DNA of 30,912 bases from a virus. Under the pieces are notes generated by a model that was not told the origin of the DNA, did no database searches, and saw only the letters and a list, made by a program, of their open reading frames with translations. The DNA lies in the IMG/VR virus record IMGVR_UViG_3300025141_000483, positions 1 to 30,912 of that record. The stretch is one strand, 5' to 3'. The position numbers and the translations under genes were made by a program. Shown here one piece after another: positions 19,688 through 30,450 of this stretch (position 1 is its first letter; each line of letters opens with the position of its first letter).

Positions 19688-20635
19688 TTAATCTGTTATT
19701 CCTCTAATTACGCAATAGGCATTTGGATACTTAACTGCGAACGCAAGTCTTTGAGTAGCTTGAAATTGTTCGATATCAGTTGCTATCTTATAATCTCTCC
19801 TGAACCTTAGTTGTCTTCTGTTTCCAAGTAATCCAAATTGTTTAGATACTCCGACAATAGCGTCGGCATTAGATGTTTCACCAGAACCTGTTCCGTAAGA
19901 AAGATTGATAGGTAATTGAGTTGAGCTCTTTACTTTCATTCCATAGATAGTTCCCAAAACACCTTCTTTCAATAATGGACTTCCCCATGTTTCATTGTTA
20001 AACATCGGTCGTGCATTACCATCAGTTAATAATCTTAAACTACCAACTGTTCTTGGTGCCCAGTATGATATATCTGGGGATGGGTGGTTATCTTGAATTA
20101 CTTGGTCCACTGCCTTTGAGACAGGCGTTAATGAGATAGTTGCCGAACCTGTTCCGGTTGTTCCAACTGTTCCATCTGCCCAAACGGCATTAGTGAATGA
20201 ACCAGTGTATCTTAGACCTTCGAATGGTGACGCTGTTGCGCCTGTTCCGTTAAGAACTCCATCATCAATCTTCAGAGCAAGGTCTCTTGCCATTTGTTCT
20301 GTCAAGTGATTTGCTAAAGATACATTGTTATCTTCTAAAACTTCAGTAGAGGCTTCAATCAAACTCGCTACTTTTTTGGCAGTTAATGTAATCCTACCAT
20401 AAGCGGTTTCGCTTGCAGTTATAGTGCCCGTTTCAGCTACCCAATATGCGGTTGATGCTCCAGTTGCTTTTGGAATATGCATAACATCACTTCCCATGCT
20501 TACGACTTCTAAGTCTGGCAAGGTAATAGATTTGGCTTGAATTAAATCAAGCACTCGTGCTGCAAATTCGTCTGGAACAAGATAACCACCTGCGCTGTCA
20601 GTAGCTTCTCTCAAAGCTTTGATTATGTCAGCCAT
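19688..20635 (-). CDS. Major capsid protein, HK97 fold
   Basis: 315 residues from ATG 20635, right after the scaffold stop; an in-frame ATG at 20662 would overlap the scaffold. The start MADIIKALREATDSAGGYLV followed by PDEFAARVLDLIQ is the N-arm of HK97-family capsid proteins. The E-loop and P-domain follow (STAYWVAETGTITASETAYG, RDLALKIDDGVLNGTG), then the A-domain (VSKQFGLLGN) and the closing P-domain strand. The N-terminal delta (scaffold) domain usual in HK97 gp5 is absent; a delta-like sequence is in the upstream ORF. Confidence 0.9.
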   Translation of the reverse strand: MADIIKALREATDSAGGYLVPDEFAARVLDLIQAKSITLPDLEVVSMGSDVMHIPKATGASTAYWVAETGTITASETAYGRITLTAKKVASLIEASTEVLEDNNVSLANHLTEQMARDLALKIDDGVLNGTGATASPFEGLRYTGSFTNAVWADGTVGTTGTGSATISLTPVSKAVDQVIQDNHPSPDISYWAPRTVGSLRLLTDGNARPMFNNETWGSPLLKEGVLGTIYGMKVKSSTQLPINLSYGTGSGETSNADAIVGVSKQFGLLGNRRQLRFRRDYKIATDIEQFQATQRLAFAVKYPNAYCVIRGITD

Positions 20636-20636
20636 A

Positions 20637-20963
20637 TTAATTATTCGTAGAGAAAAGTCCACTTGCTATTGCAAGTTCTCCTAATGAAGCGTTCTTCAAA
20701 GTTTTTGTGGTATCTGCTGCTTCCTCAACCAGTCCTCGTTCAGAATTCATAGCTTCTTTAATAGACTTTGCGATTTCATTTGCGATTTCTTTAACAGATT
20801 TTGCTTCTTCTAAGTGTGTTACAGGCAGTGTGCCCTTTTCCTCAACTTCTTCAGCTTCTTCGCATTCGCAGTCTTCTTCTTCAGCTTCTTCTTCAACTAC
20901 TTCTTCAGCATCTTCCAAAACTTCTTCGACTTCTTCAACAGGAGCCTCGTTTTCCTTTTTCAT
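20637..20963 (-). CDS. Capsid scaffold protein from an internal start
   Basis: In the second protease frame, AAAGGAGGT lies eight bases before ATG 20963, a near-perfect ribosome binding site inside the gene. The 108-residue product begins MKKENEAPVEEVEEV, has a long Glu-rich stretch with a CECE element, and ends in an amphipathic segment (EIANEIAKSIKEAMNSERG; KTLKNASLGELAIASG) like HK97 delta domains or scaffolds. It stops two bases before the capsid start. The arrangement resembles lambda Nu3, which is the in-frame C-terminal part of protease C. Confidence 0.75.
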   Translation of the reverse strand: MKKENEAPVEEVEEVLEDAEEVVEEEAEEEDCECEEAEEVEEKGTLPVTHLEEAKSVKEIANEIAKSIKEAMNSERGLVEEAADTTKTLKNASLGELAIASGLFSTNN

Positions 20964-21104
20964 TTCCTTCGACCTCCTTTCAATTATTTGAGTATCACTA
21001 AGTGCTTTCGCCAGTGAAAAATGAGCGTCAGGATATGCAGGAACTCCCACAGCCGACGTTTCTAATAAACTAATCTTCATAAACCTTCTTCTTTTAACTG
21101 CCAT
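20637..21104 (-). CDS. Protease C-terminal segment plus scaffold (second frame)
   Basis: This 155-residue frame opens at ATG 21104, eight bases before the stop of the first protease frame. It begins MAVKRRRFMKISLLETSAVG and continues VPAYPDAHF, which is the C-terminal strand signature (LxETSxVGVPAxPxA) of prohead proteases, followed by a Glu-rich scaffold region. So the protease is split over two frames: the N-part carries the catalytic residues, this part the closing strands. It could be made by reinitiation (GAGGAAG lies upstream), by frameshifting (+1 or -2), or be one protein with a sequencing indel. Confidence 0.75.
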   Translation of the reverse strand: MAVKRRRFMKISLLETSAVGVPAYPDAHFSLAKALSDTQIIERRSKEMKKENEAPVEEVEEVLEDAEEVVEEEAEEEDCECEEAEEVEEKGTLPVTHLEEAKSVKEIANEIAKSIKEAMNSERGLVEEAADTTKTLKNASLGELAIASGLFSTNN

Positions 21105-21519
21105 CAATTTCTTCCTCAATTACCTCAGTAGGTTTTCCACCAATGCTAAATCCAACAGGCATTCCTTTCTGCATATAGTCCCACAATAATTCTGCTTCTG
21201 GGTGTGCTTCATTTAATCTTGCTACTGCCATAAGTTTATCTCCATCTTGCTCTCCATCAACCCAAACACCCATAATATCTTGCCACCTATAAACTCTCTC
21301 ACCGGTTACAGGGTCTCTGCCGTGATTAGGAAATAGAGGGATTGTTCCACCCTTTAATTGTAAAATCATATCATCAATACACATTTGGTCGATGACTTCT
21401 CCATCTCTATCTTCTTTCAATCCAGAAATAGGAACTTTGATAAATCTCTCGCTGCCATCCTCAGATTTCTCTACCCAACTCTTTACTACTGGTGCGAATA
21501 TATTGAATTCTTTACTCAT
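21094..21519 (-). CDS. Prohead protease, N-terminal part (split)
   Basis: 141 residues with HK97/U35-type prohead protease features: VPISGLKEDRDGEVI, the catalytic His in PLFPNHGRDP (about residue 90) and the catalytic Ser in MPVGFSIGGKP. The frame stops at 21094 just before the region where the family continues with its C-terminal strands, which are found in the overlapping next frame. On its own the protein would lack those strands. Expected role: cleaving scaffold/delta domain during prohead maturation. Confidence 0.8.
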   Translation of the reverse strand: MSKEFNIFAPVVKSWVEKSEDGSERFIKVPISGLKEDRDGEVIDQMCIDDMILQLKGGTIPLFPNHGRDPVTGERVYRWQDIMGVWVDGEQDGDKLMAVARLNEAHPEAELLWDYMQKGMPVGFSIGGKPTEVIEEEIDGS

Positions 21520-21597: not shown

Positions 21598-23208
21598 TTA
21601 TACTCTTACTTTTATCGCTCTGGATAACTTCTCAATTCGGAAAGCTTCGACATCTAAATCTTTCTTACTTACCTTACAAATATATTTCCAATGTTGGTCA
21701 GTCCAATACAATGTAAATTCGTCTGCTGTTTCAATATAAAGTATATTGGCGTTGTCGAATGGTGCAACCCTCTCAACTAATCTCACGAAATCTTCAAATC
21801 CAACTTCAAGTCCTTCCAATCCCTTTGTAATAGATTTGACTTTGTTGTCTATTGGTGGTTGTGGTTCTTCTTCTCTACCCTGTTCTTCATTTCTATCTTG
21901 TCGAAAGTCTGCTCTATTATCATCTCCAGTCTTGTTTCCCATCAACCCTTCAGGAAGTTCTCTCTCTTTGCCCATCATCTCTCTTGCTTCCTCGATAGTG
22001 ACTGCTCCGACTTGTGTTAGGATTTGAACTATTTGGGCTTCCCTCATTTCATCAATCTTATATCCTCTATTGAACACCATAGTGACTGTCTTACTCATCC
22101 ACAATTCTTTATTCAGTTGGTTCTCTAAGTTTTTCTGTATGAAAGAAATCTTTTTGTAATATCCTTCTAACTCTTTTGCTGTTCCTCCACCGGTTACTGC
22201 TTTGTCTGCTGTTGCCGTCCAATTAACTCTTGCCGGAGGAACTCCAAATGCAATTAAAATAATCTGTGTGAAATGTTTGATTAGTTCTGTAAATTGTAAG
22301 TCCTTATTGAACTTCTCAATCTGTTGTGCTTGAACATTACCAGTAACAACCATTGCTCTGAATTTGTTCTGTTTCTTTTGTAAGTCTTTGATGGCTTGTT
22401 TAATCCCTTTGTAGTTTCTATCGTCAGGTGTTGCATCTGGCATTGTTAACATCCAATTAGGCATACCATCATTTTCAAAAAACTTACCAGCATATTCTTT
22501 CGCAAAGATAAGAGTAGCAATATCTGAAAGAAGTGGTTCAAGAGGAGTTATACCATAAACTCCACCACCAACATTTACCAAACTCAAATGAATAATATCT
22601 TCTGATTTGTAAATCCTTTCACTACCACCAACACTCTGTTGATAACTTCTTACTCGTCCGGTATCATCAGCATTGATTTTAATTGTAGAACTTTTTAATA
22701 ATTGTAAATCGTTTGTCTTTTCTTTCTTCTGCTCAACAATCTCAAACACACTTTCCTTCAAAGTTTTCCCAGTATCATTCATCATACTTGCTTCCATCTC
22801 TTTCAATACATCAAGAGTTACTTCGTTAATCAAATCTTCCATCTCTTTTTCAGGAACACTCAATTTCAAAATGTAAGCATTACCAGTCACTAATAAATCA
22901 AACAAAGCATTAGTCATTACTTTAAAGAAATTAGATTGTAATTGAAAAAACTTTGCTTTCTTAACAGCATTCTTACTTCCATCAAATCTCCACTGGTCTG
23001 CCATAATGTCTTCAATGATTGCAGAAACAACACCCATAACTTCTGGGGATTTTTTCAATACATTATAGAGAGTATCTATATCAACACCCTTCTCGCCAGT
23101 AAATATTTCTTTATCTATTCCTTGGGTAAAGCTTCCTACGTCTGGGTCTAATCCTCTGATTGTAGACGCCTTTTCCAAATTATCTTCTATATTAACAGAT
23201 TTTTCCAT
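21598..23208 (-). CDS. Portal protein
   Basis: 536 residues, normal for siphovirus portals. Recognisable parts are the N-terminal wing (LYNVLKKSPEVMGVVSAIIE), FKVMTNALFDLLVTGNAYIL, the IKSEDIIHLSLVNVGGGVYG ITPLEPLLSD block, and the stem/crown helices (ELIKHFTQIILIAFGVPPAR). The C-terminus is acidic and Glu/Arg-rich, then a small alpha/beta tail (LYIETADEFTLYWTDQHWKY). It heads a separate transcription unit with its own leaderless promoter rather than following the terminase directly. It forms the dodecameric DNA gate at one capsid vertex. Confidence 0.85.
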   Translation of the reverse strand: MEKSVNIEDNLEKASTIRGLDPDVGSFTQGIDKEIFTGEKGVDIDTLYNVLKKSPEVMGVVSAIIEDIMADQWRFDGSKNAVKKAKFFQLQSNFFKVMTNALFDLLVTGNAYILKLSVPEKEMEDLINEVTLDVLKEMEASMMNDTGKTLKESVFEIVEQKKEKTNDLQLLKSSTIKINADDTGRVRSYQQSVGGSERIYKSEDIIHLSLVNVGGGVYGITPLEPLLSDIATLIFAKEYAGKFFENDGMPNWMLTMPDATPDDRNYKGIKQAIKDLQKKQNKFRAMVVTGNVQAQQIEKFNKDLQFTELIKHFTQIILIAFGVPPARVNWTATADKAVTGGGTAKELEGYYKKISFIQKNLENQLNKELWMSKTVTMVFNRGYKIDEMREAQIVQILTQVGAVTIEEAREMMGKERELPEGLMGNKTGDDNRADFRQDRNEEQGREEEPQPPIDNKVKSITKGLEGLEVGFEDFVRLVERVAPFDNANILYIETADEFTLYWTDQHWKYICKVSKKDLDVEAFRIEKLSRAIKVRV

Positions 23209-23278: not shown

Positions 23279-23527
23279 ATGGTAAAAGTGTTATCGAAAG
23301 GAAGATACTACGAATACCCTAACAAAGTTGTGGAAGGGTGTTTGATAGATAAGAAGATAAAAGAGGACTTCAACCAGTTTGTAAAGGACAAACAGATAAG
23401 TAAATCCAAACTTCTTGAGGAGTTTTATAAGACAATTCTTGTAAGATTTCGAGATGGAAGTTTAAATAGCAGCGAGGGATACGTCACCATAAATATCCTT
23501 CGAAGCCCTATTTGCAAGCGCCAGTGA
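23279..23527 (+). CDS. Ribbon-helix-helix-like regulator, antisense to the terminase end
   Basis: 82 residues, the only complete plus-strand gene inside the structural region. After a basic strand (MVKVLSKGRYYEYPNKVVEG) it has a helix-turn-helix pair (KIKEDFNQFVKDKQISKSKL LEEFYKTIL) resembling RHH regulators. The last 66 bases run antisense to the 3' end of the terminase gene. Its leaderless promoter backs onto the portal promoter, so it could repress or balance head-gene expression. Codon use looks ordinary for the genome. Confidence 0.7.
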   Translation: MVKVLSKGRYYEYPNKVVEGCLIDKKIKEDFNQFVKDKQISKSKLLEEFYKTILVRFRDGSLNSSEGYVTINILRSPICKRQ

Positions 23528-24874
23528 AATCACTGTATCGTCGTATTTTCCAAACTTGAATTTTATTTTGGCTTTAGTCTGAGGACTTGGAGCAATCTGA
23601 ACATCTTTCAATTCTTTTAGGAGTTGTTCGGAATACTTCAATGTCTTCGGACAATCTTTGCTTGTGGGTATTGTTATTCTTGAGTTTTCAAATTCTGTCT
23701 GTAAATCAAATAATAAGTTCTTCTTTTCTTCTGCTGTGAAATGAAATGGCTCAACATTTGTAAAGTCTGCTTGTAGTTCTTGTAATGCAAATTCTCCTAA
23801 TCCTGTTTTATCGACGACAATCTTTGATGGTAGAAAATCCCTAATCAATTTCCTTAATATCCCTTTTTGTATTTTGAAATTAGCTCTGAACCTTTCTGCT
23901 TTCACAACTTTCTTTGTTCCATCTTTCTGTTTCTCTAATACTGTAATAACAGTCCAGTCGCCTGTTGGACTTGTCGCTATATCATAACCCATGAAGTAGG
24001 TGTTTGCTGGGTGCCCATATTCCATAAACTTTTCCATAGTGTCCAAATTCTTTTCTAAAATATTCCAAGGATATAATGCGTTTGCTGAACTGATAGGCCT
24101 TAACATATACTCCTGTTGGAAAGATAATTCTCCCATTTCTCTTTTAACTTGAGGTATAGACCTTTGTTCATCTGTATCTCGATTATCCATAGTATACTTC
24201 ATTTCCCAAGTTGGTTTTCCATTCACAACAACCGGGTATTCGTCAAAGTAATATTCATCATTATTTTTCAAATCGTGAAGTAAATCGACAGGAGTATCTG
24301 GTGTTCCCACCACAAATATCTTCCCCCTATTCAACTGAACAACAGGACTAACAGCAGTCCAGAATAAACTCTTATCATCATACTTTCCACCCTCGTCACA
24401 AAGAAGATAATCAATTCTCAATCCTCTAACTCCTTCTCCAAAAGTTCTACAATAGAAAGTAGAACCATTCTCCAATACAATTTCTGTTTGTTTCCAAGTT
24501 GCTTCTTTCCCAGATGCTGCGAAATCTCTTAATAAATCATTCTCTACAATCATACCTCTTACTAATTTCAAAACTTGTTTGGAATGCTCGAAGTTGTGGG
24601 AAGTTACCAAGAATTTCAATCCCTGTCTGAAAACAGCTTTCCAAAGAAAATATGCTGCGAACCAATTAGTCTTACCTGAACCTCTAAATGCCATAATACA
24701 AAGTCGTGGATATTTTTCTGCTAACCTCCACCAATCTTTATGAAATTCCCCTACCTGAAATCCCAATACATTTTCTGCAAAATAAACAAAATCTACAGCA
24801 CATTCTGCTAAGAAATATTCCAACTGATTTTCATTATATTCTGTATTCTTCAATATTTGCTCGAATGTTCTCAT
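23462..24874 (-). CDS. terL: Terminase large subunit
   Basis: 470 residues. ATPase: Walker A FRGSGKTN (63-70), Walker B DYLLCDE (155-161), coupling motif VVGTPDT (188-194). Nuclease: Asp residues in GYDIATSPTGDW (298), VVDKTGLGE (355) and KYDDTVIS (445-446), as expected for the RNase H-like domain. This is the packaging motor and DNA cutter. It is the last gene of the right-hand operon and its start overlaps the glycosyltransferase stop. The 3' end overlaps the opposite-strand RHH gene by 66 bases. Confidence 0.92.
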   Translation of the reverse strand: MRTFEQILKNTEYNENQLEYFLAECAVDFVYFAENVLGFQVGEFHKDWWRLAEKYPRLCIMAFRGSGKTNWFAAYFLWKAVFRQGLKFLVTSHNFEHSKQVLKLVRGMIVENDLLRDFAASGKEATWKQTEIVLENGSTFYCRTFGEGVRGLRIDYLLCDEGGKYDDKSLFWTAVSPVVQLNRGKIFVVGTPDTPVDLLHDLKNNDEYYFDEYPVVVNGKPTWEMKYTMDNRDTDEQRSIPQVKREMGELSFQQEYMLRPISSANALYPWNILEKNLDTMEKFMEYGHPANTYFMGYDIATSPTGDWTVITVLEKQKDGTKKVVKAERFRANFKIQKGILRKLIRDFLPSKIVVDKTGLGEFALQELQADFTNVEPFHFTAEEKKNLLFDLQTEFENSRITIPTSKDCPKTLKYSEQLLKELKDVQIAPSPQTKAKIKFKFGKYDDTVISLALANRASKDIYGDVSLAAI

Positions 24875-26112
24875 TATACATTTTCAAATAAAGTAATCCA
24901 TTCTTTAGCAAGATTATCCCAGTCATAGGTTAGTGCGAACTTCCTACAAGCTTCACTTTCCTCTTTTAGTTTTTTCTTGTCTCCTTTCCAAGAGTTATAA
25001 TAATCTTCCATTATATTGGCCATTTCAATCTCATCTGAAAAGTAGAATGGGATTGTATTCTGTCCTACTTGAGGAACACATCTTCCGTGACTGTCTTGTA
25101 ATAGTGGTATCAGTGCGCCGTGACCCTCACTTTTCATAGTGCCATAATCCATCTTCGTTGGGTCTTCTGGAACTTTATTCCCTGTTAATTCAAATCCTGT
25201 TGTGAACGCAGGCATAGCGATTGGAACTCCACTTCCCTGTGCTTCAATTCCCGGCAAACCAAATCCCTCTCCGCCAGTGTTGTAACAGAAGAAGTCCATC
25301 ATGTTATAGATTTCGTTCATATTATCTGGTTGAATTAGTTGTCTTGTATTAACATCCATATTGCTTTTAGTTAATTTCACTTTATCACCCAACTTGTATT
25401 TGTCAATTATGTGAGCTAAACTCCACCCACTTTTCGGAGGTTCTGCATCTGTATGTAACATAAGGATAGTGTCATCTTTGCCTTTGCTAAATTCGGCGAA
25501 GGCCATAATCAATCTATCCAACATCTTCCTTTGTTGGTTTCTACCTACCCAACCAATTACAAACTTATCCTCAATTTGATATTTCTTTCTTATTTCACTT
25601 CTGTCAGCCATAGGATAAAATGTTTTCGTATCTACGCCATGAGGAATACAATGAACTTTCTTAGCACCCATCTTATTCATCATATTCTCTCCCCACCTAC
25701 TCATAGCGATATTAACATCACAAGCATCAAAAATCTGGCTCCAATCCATCGCCCAACCATTACTATCAATAGGAGTATACATAATCCACTTTCCTCTCCA
25801 CCCATCTTTCTTAGCTTGGAAAACTCCTTGAATAAATCCACTTTGCCAACCTACATCACATAGAGTTACTAATACCTCTGGATTATACTTTTTCAAATTG
25901 GAAGTAACATTATCATAGGAATATTCAATCTTTCCATTAGGCAACATCCAATAACCCTCTTTCCGTTGGTGAGGTCTATCTCTTGATTGCCAACCTACGT
26001 GAAGGAACTCCCAGTCCGGTTTCTCCTTAACCCACCTACTTAATAGGTTATTCCATACTTGCCCATAACCTGTGCTCGTTAATGGATTATCTCCGTAACT
26101 CAATATCTTCAT
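24874..26112 (-). CDS. GT4-type glycosyltransferase
   Basis: 412 residues with a two-domain GT-B fold. The N-lobe opens with a Gly-rich loop (NPLTSTGYGQVWNN); the C-lobe has FVIGWVGRNQQRKMLDRLI and an intact E-x7-E motif in GGEGFGLPGIEA, the hallmark of GT4 retaining enzymes that bind a nucleotide sugar. ATG 26112 overlaps the upstream stop as ATGA. It probably acts together with the preceding methyltransferase-glycosyltransferase on virion proteins, host surface glycans or lipids; the acceptor cannot be read from sequence. Confidence 0.85.
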   Translation of the reverse strand: MKILSYGDNPLTSTGYGQVWNNLLSRWVKEKPDWEFLHVGWQSRDRPHQRKEGYWMLPNGKIEYSYDNVTSNLKKYNPEVLVTLCDVGWQSGFIQGVFQAKKDGWRGKWIMYTPIDSNGWAMDWSQIFDACDVNIAMSRWGENMMNKMGAKKVHCIPHGVDTKTFYPMADRSEIRKKYQIEDKFVIGWVGRNQQRKMLDRLIMAFAEFSKGKDDTILMLHTDAEPPKSGWSLAHIIDKYKLGDKVKLTKSNMDVNTRQLIQPDNMNEIYNMMDFFCYNTGGEGFGLPGIEAQGSGVPIAMPAFTTGFELTGNKVPEDPTKMDYGTMKSEGHGALIPLLQDSHGRCVPQVGQNTIPFYFSDEIEMANIMEDYYNSWKGDKKKLKEESEACRKFALTYDWDNLAKEWITLFENV

Positions 26113-28094
26113 TTCAATTCCTCCATCAACTTCTTAGCACTTTCTTTCCAAGAGAAGTTCTCTCTAACAAACTTACTTCCTTTCATTCCTTTCTCTCCTG
26201 CTTCTTTTTGATTTTCATAAACATATCTCATTTGTTTCTTCAAACTTTCAAAGTCAGGTTCGGCTAACATATTTCCCGGAACATAGAAATTTAAATCTGC
26301 TTGTTTTGTTTCTTTGCTATCTATGAAATAAGTGAATTCCTTTTTACAGAAATCCATATGTCCTGAATTAACATCTTTTGTAGCAATCATCGGCAATCCA
26401 CAAGCCATAGCATTTGCCATTGTAAGTCCAAATCCCTCTCCCCTCGTAGGTGCTACAAAACAATCAGATTTCTGATAATACTGGACTAATTCCTTTTCAG
26501 GAACATACTGGTCGTTAATCATTATCTTTGGGTTATCATGTCCTAAAAGTGTTTTAATGATATCTGCATAATTTTTTCCAATTTCAAAGAAGGTAGATAT
26601 TTTCAAAAGCAGAAGAACATTTTCATCTTTAAATTCTTCATCAAATGCTTTGACAAGTAATTCAGTCCCTTTCCTATCCCCTTCCTTTCCAGTCCAACTA
26701 TTCACGGATAGGAATATAAAGTTTTCCTTTTCTTCCCCTTCTTTCGCTTTCTTATTGGGTTTGTAAATCTCACTTACTCCGTGTGGAATAACAACGATAG
26801 GTATGTAAACTCCATTCCACTTGAATAAATTTTTAGTAGCTTCGCTTGGAACAAATAGCTTTGATACCTTATTTATTTGAGGAACCCACGTCTCAGGTAT
26901 CTTAGTTCCTTCGTGAACAAACATAGCATAAGGTTTCCCATAACCATCTCTCCAAAAGTGTGGAGCTTCTGAGAATATTGTACAACTCTTTTCTCCCGGA
27001 TTGATTGGTTCATTAAGATATTCCAGTCCCTCATTCACATCATACTGATTAGTCCATATATCACTGGTCTGAACCTTTGTTAGTTTGCTTAATTCTTTTA
27101 GTAACTCTCTGTTTGCTGTCGCAATACCTGTCGGATTGAAAACATTCCCTTTGAAGATTATTTTAGAAACATATTCTCTCCCATGCTCTATTAAAGGTGT
27201 AAGATTATCTTTCACATCAATCTCGTGTTCTGGGTCATCTAAATCTATAAATTCCATATGCTTTCCAGATATAATAATATTCCAAGGGTTTTTATCTTTA
27301 TGCTTTATTTTGTTTAATTCTGTAAGAGTTTCATTTACTGGTGGAAAGTCTCCATTCAATTTATGATAAGTCCAAAAGTTAATTCCTCTAATCCAATCTC
27401 TTTCTTCCCCTTTTCGTCTGCTCTTAAACTTCTTTTGCTCAAAATCTGAAATAACCTCTATATCCTTCTCCTTAGGAATTACATTAGGTGGCGCATTGAA
27501 ATATGGAAGTTGTAAATATTTGTTATCACAAACTATGTGAGAGATTGTAGAAGTGGTATCACTTGTATGTCTTTTGGAAGTTCCTAATTCATAACTATCA
27601 GTTCCTTTAATATATTCTAAGATGGGGGTAATGTTTTGCTGTCCGCAAGCACCTTTGTCATTTTCAGGAGGAGTTTCAATAATTAAGTGGTCGCACATTT
27701 TAGTTAGGGCATTCATCGTTCTTTCCACATCCCCTATATGATGAACAACATTCAAAGCCAATACTACATCAAAGTGTTCACATTTTGATAATTCTTCCAA
27801 CATTGTCGGAGTTATGTGTTTATTAAGGAAAATTGTATTATCGTTATCATTTTCTTCACAAAGCTTTTTCAATGTATCTGACTCATAACTTTCAACCATC
27901 ACACAAGTAGCATCGAAATCCTCGGCAATCTTAAAACTGAAGTATCCCTGTGCGGCACCTAAATCGAGAATAGTTATTGGCCTCTTGTATTGTTGTAAGA
28001 ATTTTTTGATAATCTCATATCTCTTTCCACATTCTCTATCTCCTTTTTGGGTGACTTCCCCTTTAACAATTCTGTCTTGGTAGTTGTGGCTCAT
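26109..28094 (-). CDS. Fusion: SAM methyltransferase, kinase-like segment, GT4-like glycosyltransferase
   Basis: 661 residues. Residues about 38-145 are a class I methyltransferase (ITILDLGAAQGYFSFKIAED motif I; FDVVLALNVVHHI; HLIIETP). Residues about 240-290 contain HKDKNPWNIIISGKHMEFID LDD, matching the H-x-D-x4-N and D-x-x-D pattern of a kinase catalytic loop (H265, D267, N272, D284). From about 312 a GT-B glycosyltransferase follows (FNPTGIATANREL; PHGVSEIYKPN; RGEGFGLTMANAMACG). In the last motif the second Glu of E-x7-E is Asn561. GGGGGG precedes ATG 28094, which overlaps the chaperonin stop (ATGA). It may build and methylate a short glycan. Confidence 0.8.
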   Translation of the reverse strand: MSHNYQDRIVKGEVTQKGDRECGKRYEIIKKFLQQYKRPITILDLGAAQGYFSFKIAEDFDATCVMVESYESDTLKKLCEENDNDNTIFLNKHITPTMLEELSKCEHFDVVLALNVVHHIGDVERTMNALTKMCDHLIIETPPENDKGACGQQNITPILEYIKGTDSYELGTSKRHTSDTTSTISHIVCDNKYLQLPYFNAPPNVIPKEKDIEVISDFEQKKFKSRRKGEERDWIRGINFWTYHKLNGDFPPVNETLTELNKIKHKDKNPWNIIISGKHMEFIDLDDPEHEIDVKDNLTPLIEHGREYVSKIIFKGNVFNPTGIATANRELLKELSKLTKVQTSDIWTNQYDVNEGLEYLNEPINPGEKSCTIFSEAPHFWRDGYGKPYAMFVHEGTKIPETWVPQINKVSKLFVPSEATKNLFKWNGVYIPIVVIPHGVSEIYKPNKKAKEGEEKENFIFLSVNSWTGKEGDRKGTELLVKAFDEEFKDENVLLLLKISTFFEIGKNYADIIKTLLGHDNPKIMINDQYVPEKELVQYYQKSDCFVAPTRGEGFGLTMANAMACGLPMIATKDVNSGHMDFCKKEFTYFIDSKETKQADLNFYVPGNMLAEPDFESLKKQMRYVYENQKEAGEKGMKGSKFVRENFSWKESAKKLMEELK

Positions 28095-29515
28095 TTTTCC
28101 CCCCCTTGTAATATTTGGTCAAGCTTCAAAATTATACAAGCAACATCATTTGCAGAGTTAATAGCGTTTATCTTCAAAACACTTGGTTCGATAATTCCTC
28201 TTTCTTCTGCTGAACTAATTATAAGTTGTTCATCAACACCCATAGTTTTCTTTCCATTATTGTGTTCCGTTTTCAAAAGTGTTAGTGTCTCAATAGCATC
28301 TAACCCACAATTCTCAGCAAGTATCAAAGGTATACTCTCCATCGCTTCGGCAAACTTCCTAATCGCAATCTGTTCCTTACCACCAACTCTCTTAGCAAAT
28401 TCCTCTAACATAAGGCTTAATTCAGTTTCAATACTTCCCGCACCTGTTACTACCATGGTGTCGTGTCTTAAAATCCCCATAACATCATCTACTGCTCTCG
28501 CAGTTTCATCAAGAGTGTTATCTGTCTGCCCACCAAGAAGAAGTGTTTGAATTTTACTTGCCTTATTCTTTAAGATAATTGTAGTAGTCTCTTTATCATA
28601 GATACATCTACCTAATCCCACACTTTCCTTAAATTCTTCATCTGGGTCTTGGATTGCTGTTGCGCCTGTCACCAAACAAATATTATCAATATGGTCTCTC
28701 GCATAAGCCACCACACTCATAATACCCTTCTTAGTCAAATAGTTCTCGAACAATGGATTTGTGTCGGAATAGAAACAAATCTTAACATTTTCTTTTTCCA
28801 GCTTATCTGCGATATTCTTCATAAACTCTTTCTGCTTGTTTTCAATATCTTCCAAATCACTCGCATTACTTGCTTGTATCTTACTGAACTCTAAATTACT
28901 TCTCAATTCCAAGACGGCCACATTACCTTCTGCTTCAAGAGGCATTCTATCATTTATCGTATAACCTTCAAAAGCATAACCTTTGATAATCTGGGAACCT
29001 AATGGGTCTGAGTTCTTTTTCTTAAATATCTTTAACTTCTTCCTATCTGCTTCTTTCAATAGACTTGCCAGATGGATTGCTAATTTCTTGTTAATCTTAC
29101 TTCCGAAGGTTGTTAGGATTAAATCTTCTTTTTTACCAGCATATTGAGATTGGATTAAATGTTCAATACATTTATCTCGCGCCAAATTATATCCTTTAAT
29201 AACTGTTGTTTGATGAACGTTCTTGTTAAGTAACTCCATAGCTTTCTCAAGTAGTTGCCCTGTTAATATTAATGCTGTGGTTGTTCCATCTCCAATCGCT
29301 TTCTCTTGCCCTTCTGCAAGTTTCTTAAATAATCCGCCAATGGGATTATCAATTTTAGTATTTCTCATAATCGTAGCACCATCATTAGTCAAAATAACTT
29401 CCTCGCCCTTAACCAACATCTTATTCATACCTCTCGGACCCAATGTGCTTCTAACCAAATTAGAAATATCTATTCCCAATTTGATATAATTGAACTTGGG
29501 TTCTTGTTCCATCAT
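28091..29515 (-). CDS. Group II chaperonin (thermosome-like)
   Basis: 474 residues against about 545 in cellular thermosomes. Equatorial ATPase motifs are complete: STLGPRGMNKMLV (23-35), LTNDGATI (42-49), GDGTTTA (75-81), the catalytic Asp region LDETARAVDD (335-344), VTGAGSIETELSLMLEEFAK (356-375) and a C-terminal block (NCGLDAIETL; GIIEPSVLKINAINSANDVA). The apical part keeps the helical-protrusion region (about 205-240) that forms the built-in lid. The shortening is at the N-terminus (about 25 residues missing), in the intermediate/apical loops and at the C-terminus. It probably folds virion proteins, alone or mixed with host subunits. ATGATG overlaps the upstream stop. Confidence 0.92.
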   Translation of the reverse strand: MMEQEPKFNYIKLGIDISNLVRSTLGPRGMNKMLVKGEEVILTNDGATIMRNTKIDNPIGGLFKKLAEGQEKAIGDGTTTALILTGQLLEKAMELLNKNVHQTTVIKGYNLARDKCIEHLIQSQYAGKKEDLILTTFGSKINKKLAIHLASLLKEADRKKLKIFKKKNSDPLGSQIIKGYAFEGYTINDRMPLEAEGNVAVLELRSNLEFSKIQASNASDLEDIENKQKEFMKNIADKLEKENVKICFYSDTNPLFENYLTKKGIMSVVAYARDHIDNICLVTGATAIQDPDEEFKESVGLGRCIYDKETTTIILKNKASKIQTLLLGGQTDNTLDETARAVDDVMGILRHDTMVVTGAGSIETELSLMLEEFAKRVGGKEQIAIRKFAEAMESIPLILAENCGLDAIETLTLLKTEHNNGKKTMGVDEQLIISSAEERGIIEPSVLKINAINSANDVACIILKLDQILQGGEK

Positions 29516-29664
29516 AATCGATTTAGGAAGGCTCTAATGAGTTCTTTTTCCTCATCAGTATAAATCCCTGAATTTAGTTCTTTATCTGCCTGTGCCCTAT
29601 CAAATTCAATCGTGGGGGTATATTTCTGTGTAGGTATCCTCACCTTATCATTCGTGATTACCAT
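29512..29664 (-). CDS. Small protein upstream of chaperonin (50 aa)
   Basis: ATG 29664 overlaps the preceding stop, and TGA 29514-29512 overlaps the chaperonin ATG. The product begins MVITNDKVRIPTQKYTPTIE and ends TDEEKELIRAFLNRL with a C-terminal amphipathic helix. No family recognised. It may be a cofactor or substrate adaptor of the chaperonin, or simply a coupling ORF. Confidence 0.6.
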   Translation of the reverse strand: MVITNDKVRIPTQKYTPTIEFDRAQADKELNSGIYTDEEKELIRAFLNRL

Positions 29665-29774
29665 AAGGCCATCCACAATGATTTAATTAACCAAAGTAAT
29701 CCTAAAGTCATAGCAATCGCTAATAACAAACTCCAAAATTTACTTAGTGCTGTCGTTTTTATTTTCTTTTTCAT
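29658..29774 (-). CDS. Single-span mini membrane protein (38 aa)
   Basis: ATG 29774 overlaps the AbrB-like gene stop as ATGA. The product is a basic start (MKKKIKTTALSKF) followed by one hydrophobic helix (WSLLLAIAMTLGLLWLIK) and a short Trp-containing end. No family recognised. The stop/start overlaps on both sides support translation. Confidence 0.6.
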   Translation of the reverse strand: MKKKIKTTALSKFWSLLLAIAMTLGLLWLIKSLWMALW

Positions 29775-30229
29775 ATTTCCACTTCCTCTGTATCAGAGTT
29801 TTCTTCTTCTAACTTAATTGCTTCTTCCACTTGTTCCTTATCCAATCCATACCAATCTTTCTTTTTCGCCGTAACACCCAAAGTGCCGAATTTACTTTTA
29901 TCTCGTGCATCGGAATTATCCTCTAACAGCTCATCATATTCCTCAACCACAATCCTCTTATCAATAACATCAAAATAAAGTGCTATCTTAGTTTCGTGTG
30001 TCCAACCCAGAAACCTTACCCAAGCATTAGGTAAAAGTGCGAAAGCAGTTTTATTATTTCTATTGAGGGTTAATCTTTTTACTTTGTAAATCTTATCTAA
30101 AAATTTTCTATCCGATAATTTTTCTAATTCCTTATGTGCGTTTTGAGCATTACTCTCGTCGTGGATTGGTTTTCTTTCGCTATTCAAATCTTTCGGCCTT
30201 CCTCTTGGGTATGTCTTTTCTTCTTCCAT
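29771..30229 (-). CDS. AbrB-like DNA-binding regulator
   Basis: 152 residues. The N-terminus has a GRP element (YPRGRPKDLNSERK), like an AT-hook. Residues about 50-95 (KVKRLTLNRNNKTAFALLPN AWVRFLGW...KRIVVEEY) fit the swapped-hairpin AbrB/SpoVT fold: strand, LP-x-W/ll loop, strand, and a final V-V-E strand. The C-terminal half is acidic and possibly a dimerisation or interaction arm. It is second in the operon and is a candidate autoregulator acting on the operators at 30421-30535. Confidence 0.7.
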   Translation of the reverse strand: MEEEKTYPRGRPKDLNSERKPIHDESNAQNAHKELEKLSDRKFLDKIYKVKRLTLNRNNKTAFALLPNAWVRFLGWTHETKIALYFDVIDKRIVVEEYDELLEDNSDARDKSKFGTLGVTAKKKDWYGLDKEQVEEAIKLEEENSDTEEVEI

Positions 30230-30231
30230 TA

Positions 30232-30414
30232 CTAATCTTTATATATACCCCCCTTTAAATACTTTTCCCCTAGTATTTCTACTTTCTGTTCTATCTTATC
30301 TAATTTATCTTGTAAGGGTTTGAGTATCCGTAGGTGGTCAAGTCCCTTGTTAGGACTTGTGCCGAAATTTTTTAACCATTCATAATTCTCTAAACTTATC
30401 TTTACGAGTTTCAT
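30232..30414 (-). CDS. Ribbon-helix-helix-like protein with coiled-coil tail
   Basis: 60 residues from ATG 30414, chosen because it lies 24 bases from the TATA centre; a TTG at 30423 in the same frame lies further upstream. VKISLENYEWLKNFG (4-18) followed by SPNKGLDHLRIL is the strand-helix-helix pattern of CopG/RHH proteins. The second half (LQDKLDKIEQKVEILGEKYL) is a short coiled coil. As the first gene after the operator region it may bind the AGGT/ACCT sites. Confidence 0.65.
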   Translation of the reverse strand: MKLVKISLENYEWLKNFGTSPNKGLDHLRILKPLQDKLDKIEQKVEILGEKYLKGGIYKD

Positions 30415-30420
30415 AATATT

Positions 30421-30450
30421 CAAAGGTACCCCCCATATATAAACCTTTGG
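30421..30450 (-). promoter_or_regulatory. Operon promoter flanked by an inverted repeat
   Basis: BRE CCAAAGG (30450-30444) and TATA TTTATATATG (30443-30434) lie 24 bases before ATG 30414 (leaderless). The TATA is flanked by a perfect 7-bp inverted repeat, CAAAGGT at 30421-30427 and ACCTTTG at 30443-30449, so a dimeric regulator bound there would block TBP or polymerase. Confidence 0.7.

Follow-up and report, generated by a model that had tools for sequence, protein, structure and literature searches.

The need of capsids for chaperonins became apparent from phages with GroEL or GroES-like parts of their own, and to our knowledge the corresponding question for archaeal viruses, whether group II chaperonins fold their capsids, has barely been tested. 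Thermosomes have been found in all 18 genomes of marine group II (MGII) virus clade 1, where they grouped with the chaperonins of the MGII hosts (Nishimura et al. 2017, PMC5332604), and several further thermosomes are present in predicted archaeal viruses (RaFAH 2021, PMC8276007). The ICTV profile of the Aoguangviridae gives GroEL/GroES, not a thermosome (PMC10768690).

The window analysed here comprises an entire IMG/VR virus record (30,912 bp, class linear), in which a chaperonin gene lies just upstream of the genes for head formation and packaging (Table 1). This open reading frame spans the full Cpn60_TCP1 profile (Pfam, E 2.9e-103), and its best PDB chains are all archaeal group II chaperonins, not GroEL. 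An AlphaFold model based on an alignment of 51 relatives (pLDDT 91.7, pTM 0.86) contains the equatorial, intermediate and apical domains, with no sign of a broken equatorial domain, and is structurally closest to Mm-cpn and the thermosomes (TM 0.92 to closed Mm-cpn, 9cpk). The built-in helical protrusion, already recognised in the original prediction, is visible both in the alignment and in the model (helix 218-241), in a region that is 4 residues shorter than in cellular copies. The motifs GDGTTT, NDG and RAxDD are present, and D60, D91, K161 and D386 of Mm-cpn correspond to D45, D76, K140 and D344 of the window protein; we take K161 to be the nucleotide-sensing lysine and D386 to be the hydrolysis aspartate. 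These four ATPase residues and the motif GDGT[TS]T are kept in 18/18 family copies at 40-55% identity. The combination of a GroEL-type apical domain and a GroES partner, characteristic of group I, was not found for the window chaperonin, and a search for Cpn10/GroES-type genes gave none in the window or nine relatives, some of which may be incomplete records (11/14 control genomes were positive). The original prediction of a virus-borne group II chaperonin of 474 residues with its ATPase motifs is thereby confirmed at the level of sequence and model: the gene encodes a complete thermosome-type subunit with a predicted intact fold.

Table 1. Features of the window around the chaperonin gene and the head genes
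Feature	Position	Strand	Evidence or remark
Archaeal BRE/TATA promoter AAAGGTTTATATA	30436..30448	-	34 nt before ATG 30414; heads the operon that runs to the chaperonin
Ribbon-helix-helix-like small ORF (class by eye)	30232..30414	-	homologues in L008, L009, L010
Small AbrB/SpoVT-like protein (class by eye; Pfam empty)	29771..30229	-	homologues before the chaperonin in L004, L006, L008, L009, L010
50-aa ORF, TGA overlapping the chaperonin ATG by 4 nt (ATGA)	29512..29664	-	sequence reading
Group II (thermosome-type) chaperonin, 474 aa, ATG start	28091..29515	-	Pfam Cpn60_TCP1 E 2.9e-103; best PDB matches archaeal group II; AF2 pLDDT 91.7
Methyltransferase-glycosyltransferase fusion (GT1)	26109..28094	-	Pfam PF13489 + PF00534; 4-nt overlap with chaperonin
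Glycosyltransferase, GT4-like (GT2)	24874..26112	-	Pfam PF00534; PHROG 2170
Terminase large subunit	23462..24874	-	Pfam Terminase_6N/6C; PHROG 38
Portal protein	21598..23208	-	Pfam Phage_portal E 2.6e-31
Probable prohead protease (position and sequence look; no Pfam/PHROG match)	21094..21519	-	kept between portal and MCP in relatives
HK97-type major capsid protein (MCP), proposed main client	19688..20662	-	Pfam Phage_capsid E 1.7e-37

Overlaps of the chaperonin gene cluster with glycosyltransferase and terminase genes had also been predicted. The overlaps are real (chaperonin/GT1, 4 nt at 28091-28094; GT1/GT2, 4 nt at 26109-26112; GT2/terminase, 1 nt at 24874), but the direct neighbour of the chaperonin is a methyltransferase-glycosyltransferase fusion, of which the glycosyltransferase half is kept at the same place in relatives. 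The chaperonin-to-glycosyltransferase overlap is peculiar to the window record, and relatives have cargo of as much as about 7 kb between the two genes. On the upstream side, the ATGA overlap with the 50-aa ORF suggests translational coupling, and the ATG at 30414 is, by promoter spacing, likely to be the true start of the ribbon-helix-helix-like ORF. No Rfam matches or tRNAs were found within the window.

A profile scan of IMG/VR identified nine records with chaperonins of 40-54% identity, after which identity drops to 33% or less among the matches listed. All nine encode the same capsid protein (49-70% identity) and have a common gene order, with local exceptions: chaperonin, optional cargo, GT1, GT2, terminase, portal, protease and capsid. 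Since these records had been found through the chaperonin, the search was repeated with the terminase alone, which retrieved about 33 records with at least 40% identity. Wherever one of these terminase-sampled records extends 10 kb or more beyond the terminase on the upstream side, the chaperonin is present (13/13), including one (G008) in which it is just beyond the terminase flank. The records lacking it are fragments whose upstream sequence is shorter than 8.7 kb. The distance between the two genes varies from about 3 to 13 kb across the family. The chaperonin is thus a core gene of this archaeal tailed virus family, as far as the records reach. Among the listed records of the phage collection, no named virus has a TerL or MCP with more than 30% identity to the family.

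About 35 IMG/VR records (L225-L257 and the window) form one virus family. A 9.4-kb fragment from another metagenome (L002) is near-identical to the window (TerL 100%, MCP 99.7%), with 89.5% identity for the 20637 protein. The island between the chaperonin and glycosyltransferase genes of relatives (L215:7433-14185; L219:12913-17926; L005:9400-13002) has a variable content, including GDP-mannose dehydratase/epimerase, TPP enzymes, aminotransferase, radical SAM/SPASM proteins and extra glycosyltransferases; the window has no such island, only the methyltransferase fused to GT1. Elsewhere in the relatives, a RuvB-like AAA ATPase, an ATP-dependent DNA ligase and a Ku-domain protein are clustered in L005:659-3992 (minus), like a viral end-joining module, and a P-loop ATPase in L004:1678-3709 (minus) is apparently split by intein-like pieces (GTGKT|C ... 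HN|S) with a separate HNH-like ORF in between, by eye a possible split intein.

TATA-like boxes peak about 30 nt ahead of the operon-head starts. The BRE/TATA motif AAAGNTTTAWA is found at 32 sites where 15 would be expected. It lies repeatedly at a distance of exactly 34 nt from the following ATG, both in the window (30448-30436 (-) and 3218-3206 (-)) and in L004, L005, L007 and others. These leaderless archaeal promoters indicate that the hosts of the family are archaea. They also rule out a bacterial host, which had been considered from the RuvB, Ku and ligase genes of a relative. When hosts were sought through the terminase, about 1,180 archaeal genomes, a sample outside which Nanoarchaeota and Asgard archaea fall, yielded no close relative. 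These genomes represent the phyla to which metagenome-assembled genomes (MAGs) of Bathyarchaeota (398 genomes), Methanotrichaceae (345), Thermoplasmata (243), Aenigmatarchaeota (156) and Diapherotrites (19) belong, and the phylum of G023 (23). The best match comes from a viral contig of 21.9 kb that was binned into an Aenigmatarchaeota genome (L207, G1097:C1), and at 31% terminase identity it is too weak to name a host. The same contig encodes a protein of 1229 aa with matches to the DNA methyltransferase and ATP-dependent ligase families.

In two phylogenetic trees, the family chaperonins form one clade with support of 100/100, outside all cellular clades of a sampling without Asgard archaea, Nanoarchaeota and CCT. 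Placement inside a host clade with host flanking genes, which would have spoken for contamination or a chimeric assembly, was not observed. The stem of the clade is long (1.4-2.1 substitutions per site). The other 23 sampled viral thermosomes, which are likely to be those of the published MGII viruses, form a clade of their own (100/99) with at most 33% identity to the focal family. As a single joint viral clade is not rejected (AU p 0.21), a separate acquisition cannot be claimed. The original view of viral thermosomes as rare does not hold, since one profile scan of IMG/VR gave more than 517 loci, as a lower bound, with group II-type relatives. A plain scan with the window protein gave zero matches, probably from over-specific peptide patterns, and in INPHARED there was no full-length match to the window chaperonin, only weak matches of GroEL type. 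The group II-like chaperonin of a Brocadiaceae MAG (L097) sits at the end of a very long branch and is either bacterial group III or misbinned.

The subunit itself has a derived anatomy, examined in a detailed alignment of ten family copies, with the N-terminus and the ATPase residues scored in 18. The shortened N-terminus and apical (lid) loops originally seen in the window are common to the family. Only 6-11 residues precede the conserved Ile in 18/18 copies, compared to 26-46 where the ATG of a cellular copy could be identified, so that about 20 N-terminal residues are absent from all 18; in most copies, in-frame stops upstream rule out a missed start. The C-terminal tail is 5-14 aa in the ten copies measured. 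Deletions common to the ten aligned copies comprise 4 residues of the lid, 10-14 residues after Mm-cpn (Mm) position 177 in the intermediate domain, and 3 residues near Mm 392, and the residues Mm D45 (replaced by N), G53 and D514 are changed in all ten. The family thus lacks the N-terminal strand and long C-terminal tail that are usual, but not strictly defining, group II traits. In thermosomes, the N-terminal segment provides a strand of the equatorial sheet common to neighbouring subunits. As it is this inter-subunit strand that is missing, subunit contacts have probably been altered across the family. The trimmed subunit is a natural experiment on the contacts that a group II ring can lose. 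A short N-terminus (12-19 aa) is also found in one subclade among the more than 517 IMG/VR loci (L013-L083; e.g. L042, L060, L081).

Divergence of the chaperonin was compared with that of nine other genes in 10 genomes (45 non-independent pairs). Its mean pairwise identity is 0.49, slightly under that of portal, terminase and protease (0.52-0.55), a pace of divergence like that of the core virion genes, and its distances correlate with those of all nine genes (permutation p 0.0005, the floor value). The strongest correlate, as the best of nine comparisons, is the MCP (r 0.925; leave-one-out r 0.86-0.94). Partial correlations of tree distances with the chaperonin, given the other genes, are 0.71 for MCP, 0.54 for the probable connector and 0.41 for the protease, and negative for the terminase. 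The co-divergence of MCP and chaperonin is a lead rather than proof, and could mirror a shared recombination history of adjacent genes.

We propose, with a probability of roughly 0.6, that the chaperonin is a vertically inherited, functional core gene encoding the sole subunit of a virus-specific group II ring that folds virion proteins, the MCP first. Group II chaperonins form double rings of 8- or 9-fold symmetry. From the family-wide alteration of the N-terminal strand and of parts of the equatorial contact sheet, we infer that the viral subunit would assemble into a ring of its own. This ring would shut its built-in lid upon ATP hydrolysis and, late in infection, would fold virion proteins, beginning with the major capsid protein. 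Head assembly would then not depend on how much host thermosome is present or on how specific it is. Capsid folding by the viral chaperonin is plausible, and a dedicated ATP-driven ring for virion proteins, probably the capsid, appears the most likely role, with weak backing from the MCP co-divergence. This suggests that viruses of the family fold their own capsid proteins without relying on the host. As originally suggested, the chaperonin may form a homo-oligomer and may replace or remodel the host thermosome. More tentatively, the ring may be virus-only, with altered contacts and in co-evolution with the capsid protein, a capsid-folding machine incompatible with host subunits and possibly of non-standard architecture. 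The chaperonin could also serve the glycan cargo rather than head assembly, as a sugar-nucleotide island follows it in relatives.

The viral subunit may, however, mix with host subunits. It could then act as auxiliary host support, adding to the host thermosome for general folding under infection stress with no dedicated virion client, which we consider unlikely. Archaeal group II chaperonins readily form hetero-oligomers, and metabolic genes (sugar-nucleotide enzymes, TPP enzymes, radical SAM) make up the variable adjoining cargo of relatives; yet the gene occurs in every family record of adequate coverage and diverges along with core virion genes, and the alterations of the N-terminal strand, the stem-loop glycine and the C-terminal tail argue against such mixing. 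Loss of folding activity in favour of another role, e.g. a decoy role towards cofactors of the host thermosome or that of a structural scaffold for assembling glycans or virions, is quite improbable: the very long stem and the family-wide deletions do point to a shift in constraint, but the tested residues for ATP binding and hydrolysis persist in all 18 copies scored, at 40-55% identity, and the predicted fold retains both lid and intermediate domain. Host contamination or a chimeric assembly, conceivable for a single metagenomic contig, can be dismissed for a gene outside the sampled cellular clades, as the same arrangement recurs across many divergent IMG/VR records of different metagenomic origin, which provides independent syntenic evidence against it.

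With a thermosome that is apparently indispensable to a virus family, group II folding of archaeal virus capsids becomes directly testable, and two recombinant proteins of one genome suffice for this.

Compared with known systems, the window chaperonin has in common with archaeal thermosomes (Mm-cpn of Methanococcus maripaludis, the T. acidophilum thermosome and ACII) the three-domain fold, the tested ATPase residues, the helical protrusion and the lack of a co-chaperonin. It differs from them by its 31-33% identity, the missing N-terminal strand, a short C-terminal tail without GGM repeats, the lid (4 residues) and intermediate-domain (10-14 residues) deletions, and the non-conserved Mm G53 and D514. 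The group I GroELs of phages have no helical protrusion; these homologues (PHROG 5725; Bacillus phage AR9, Cellulophaga phi14:2) are likewise virus-encoded chaperonins, but reach a TM of only 0.5-0.58 to the window model. The nearest viral structure is BFVD A0A240F7F9, 'Thermosome (Fragment) [uncultured virus]' (TM 0.79, 23% identity). The Aoguangviridae, or magroviruses, are archaeal Caudoviricetes with a chaperonin, as here. Also comparable are the MGII-virus thermosomes (Nishimura 2017, PMC5332604) and those noted by RaFAH (PMC8276007), group II chaperonins of archaeal tailed viruses for which an aid to virion assembly has also been proposed. Thermosomes in archaeal viruses are thus already known; what is new is a second lineage, the status of the chaperonin as a core gene, and the derived subunit.
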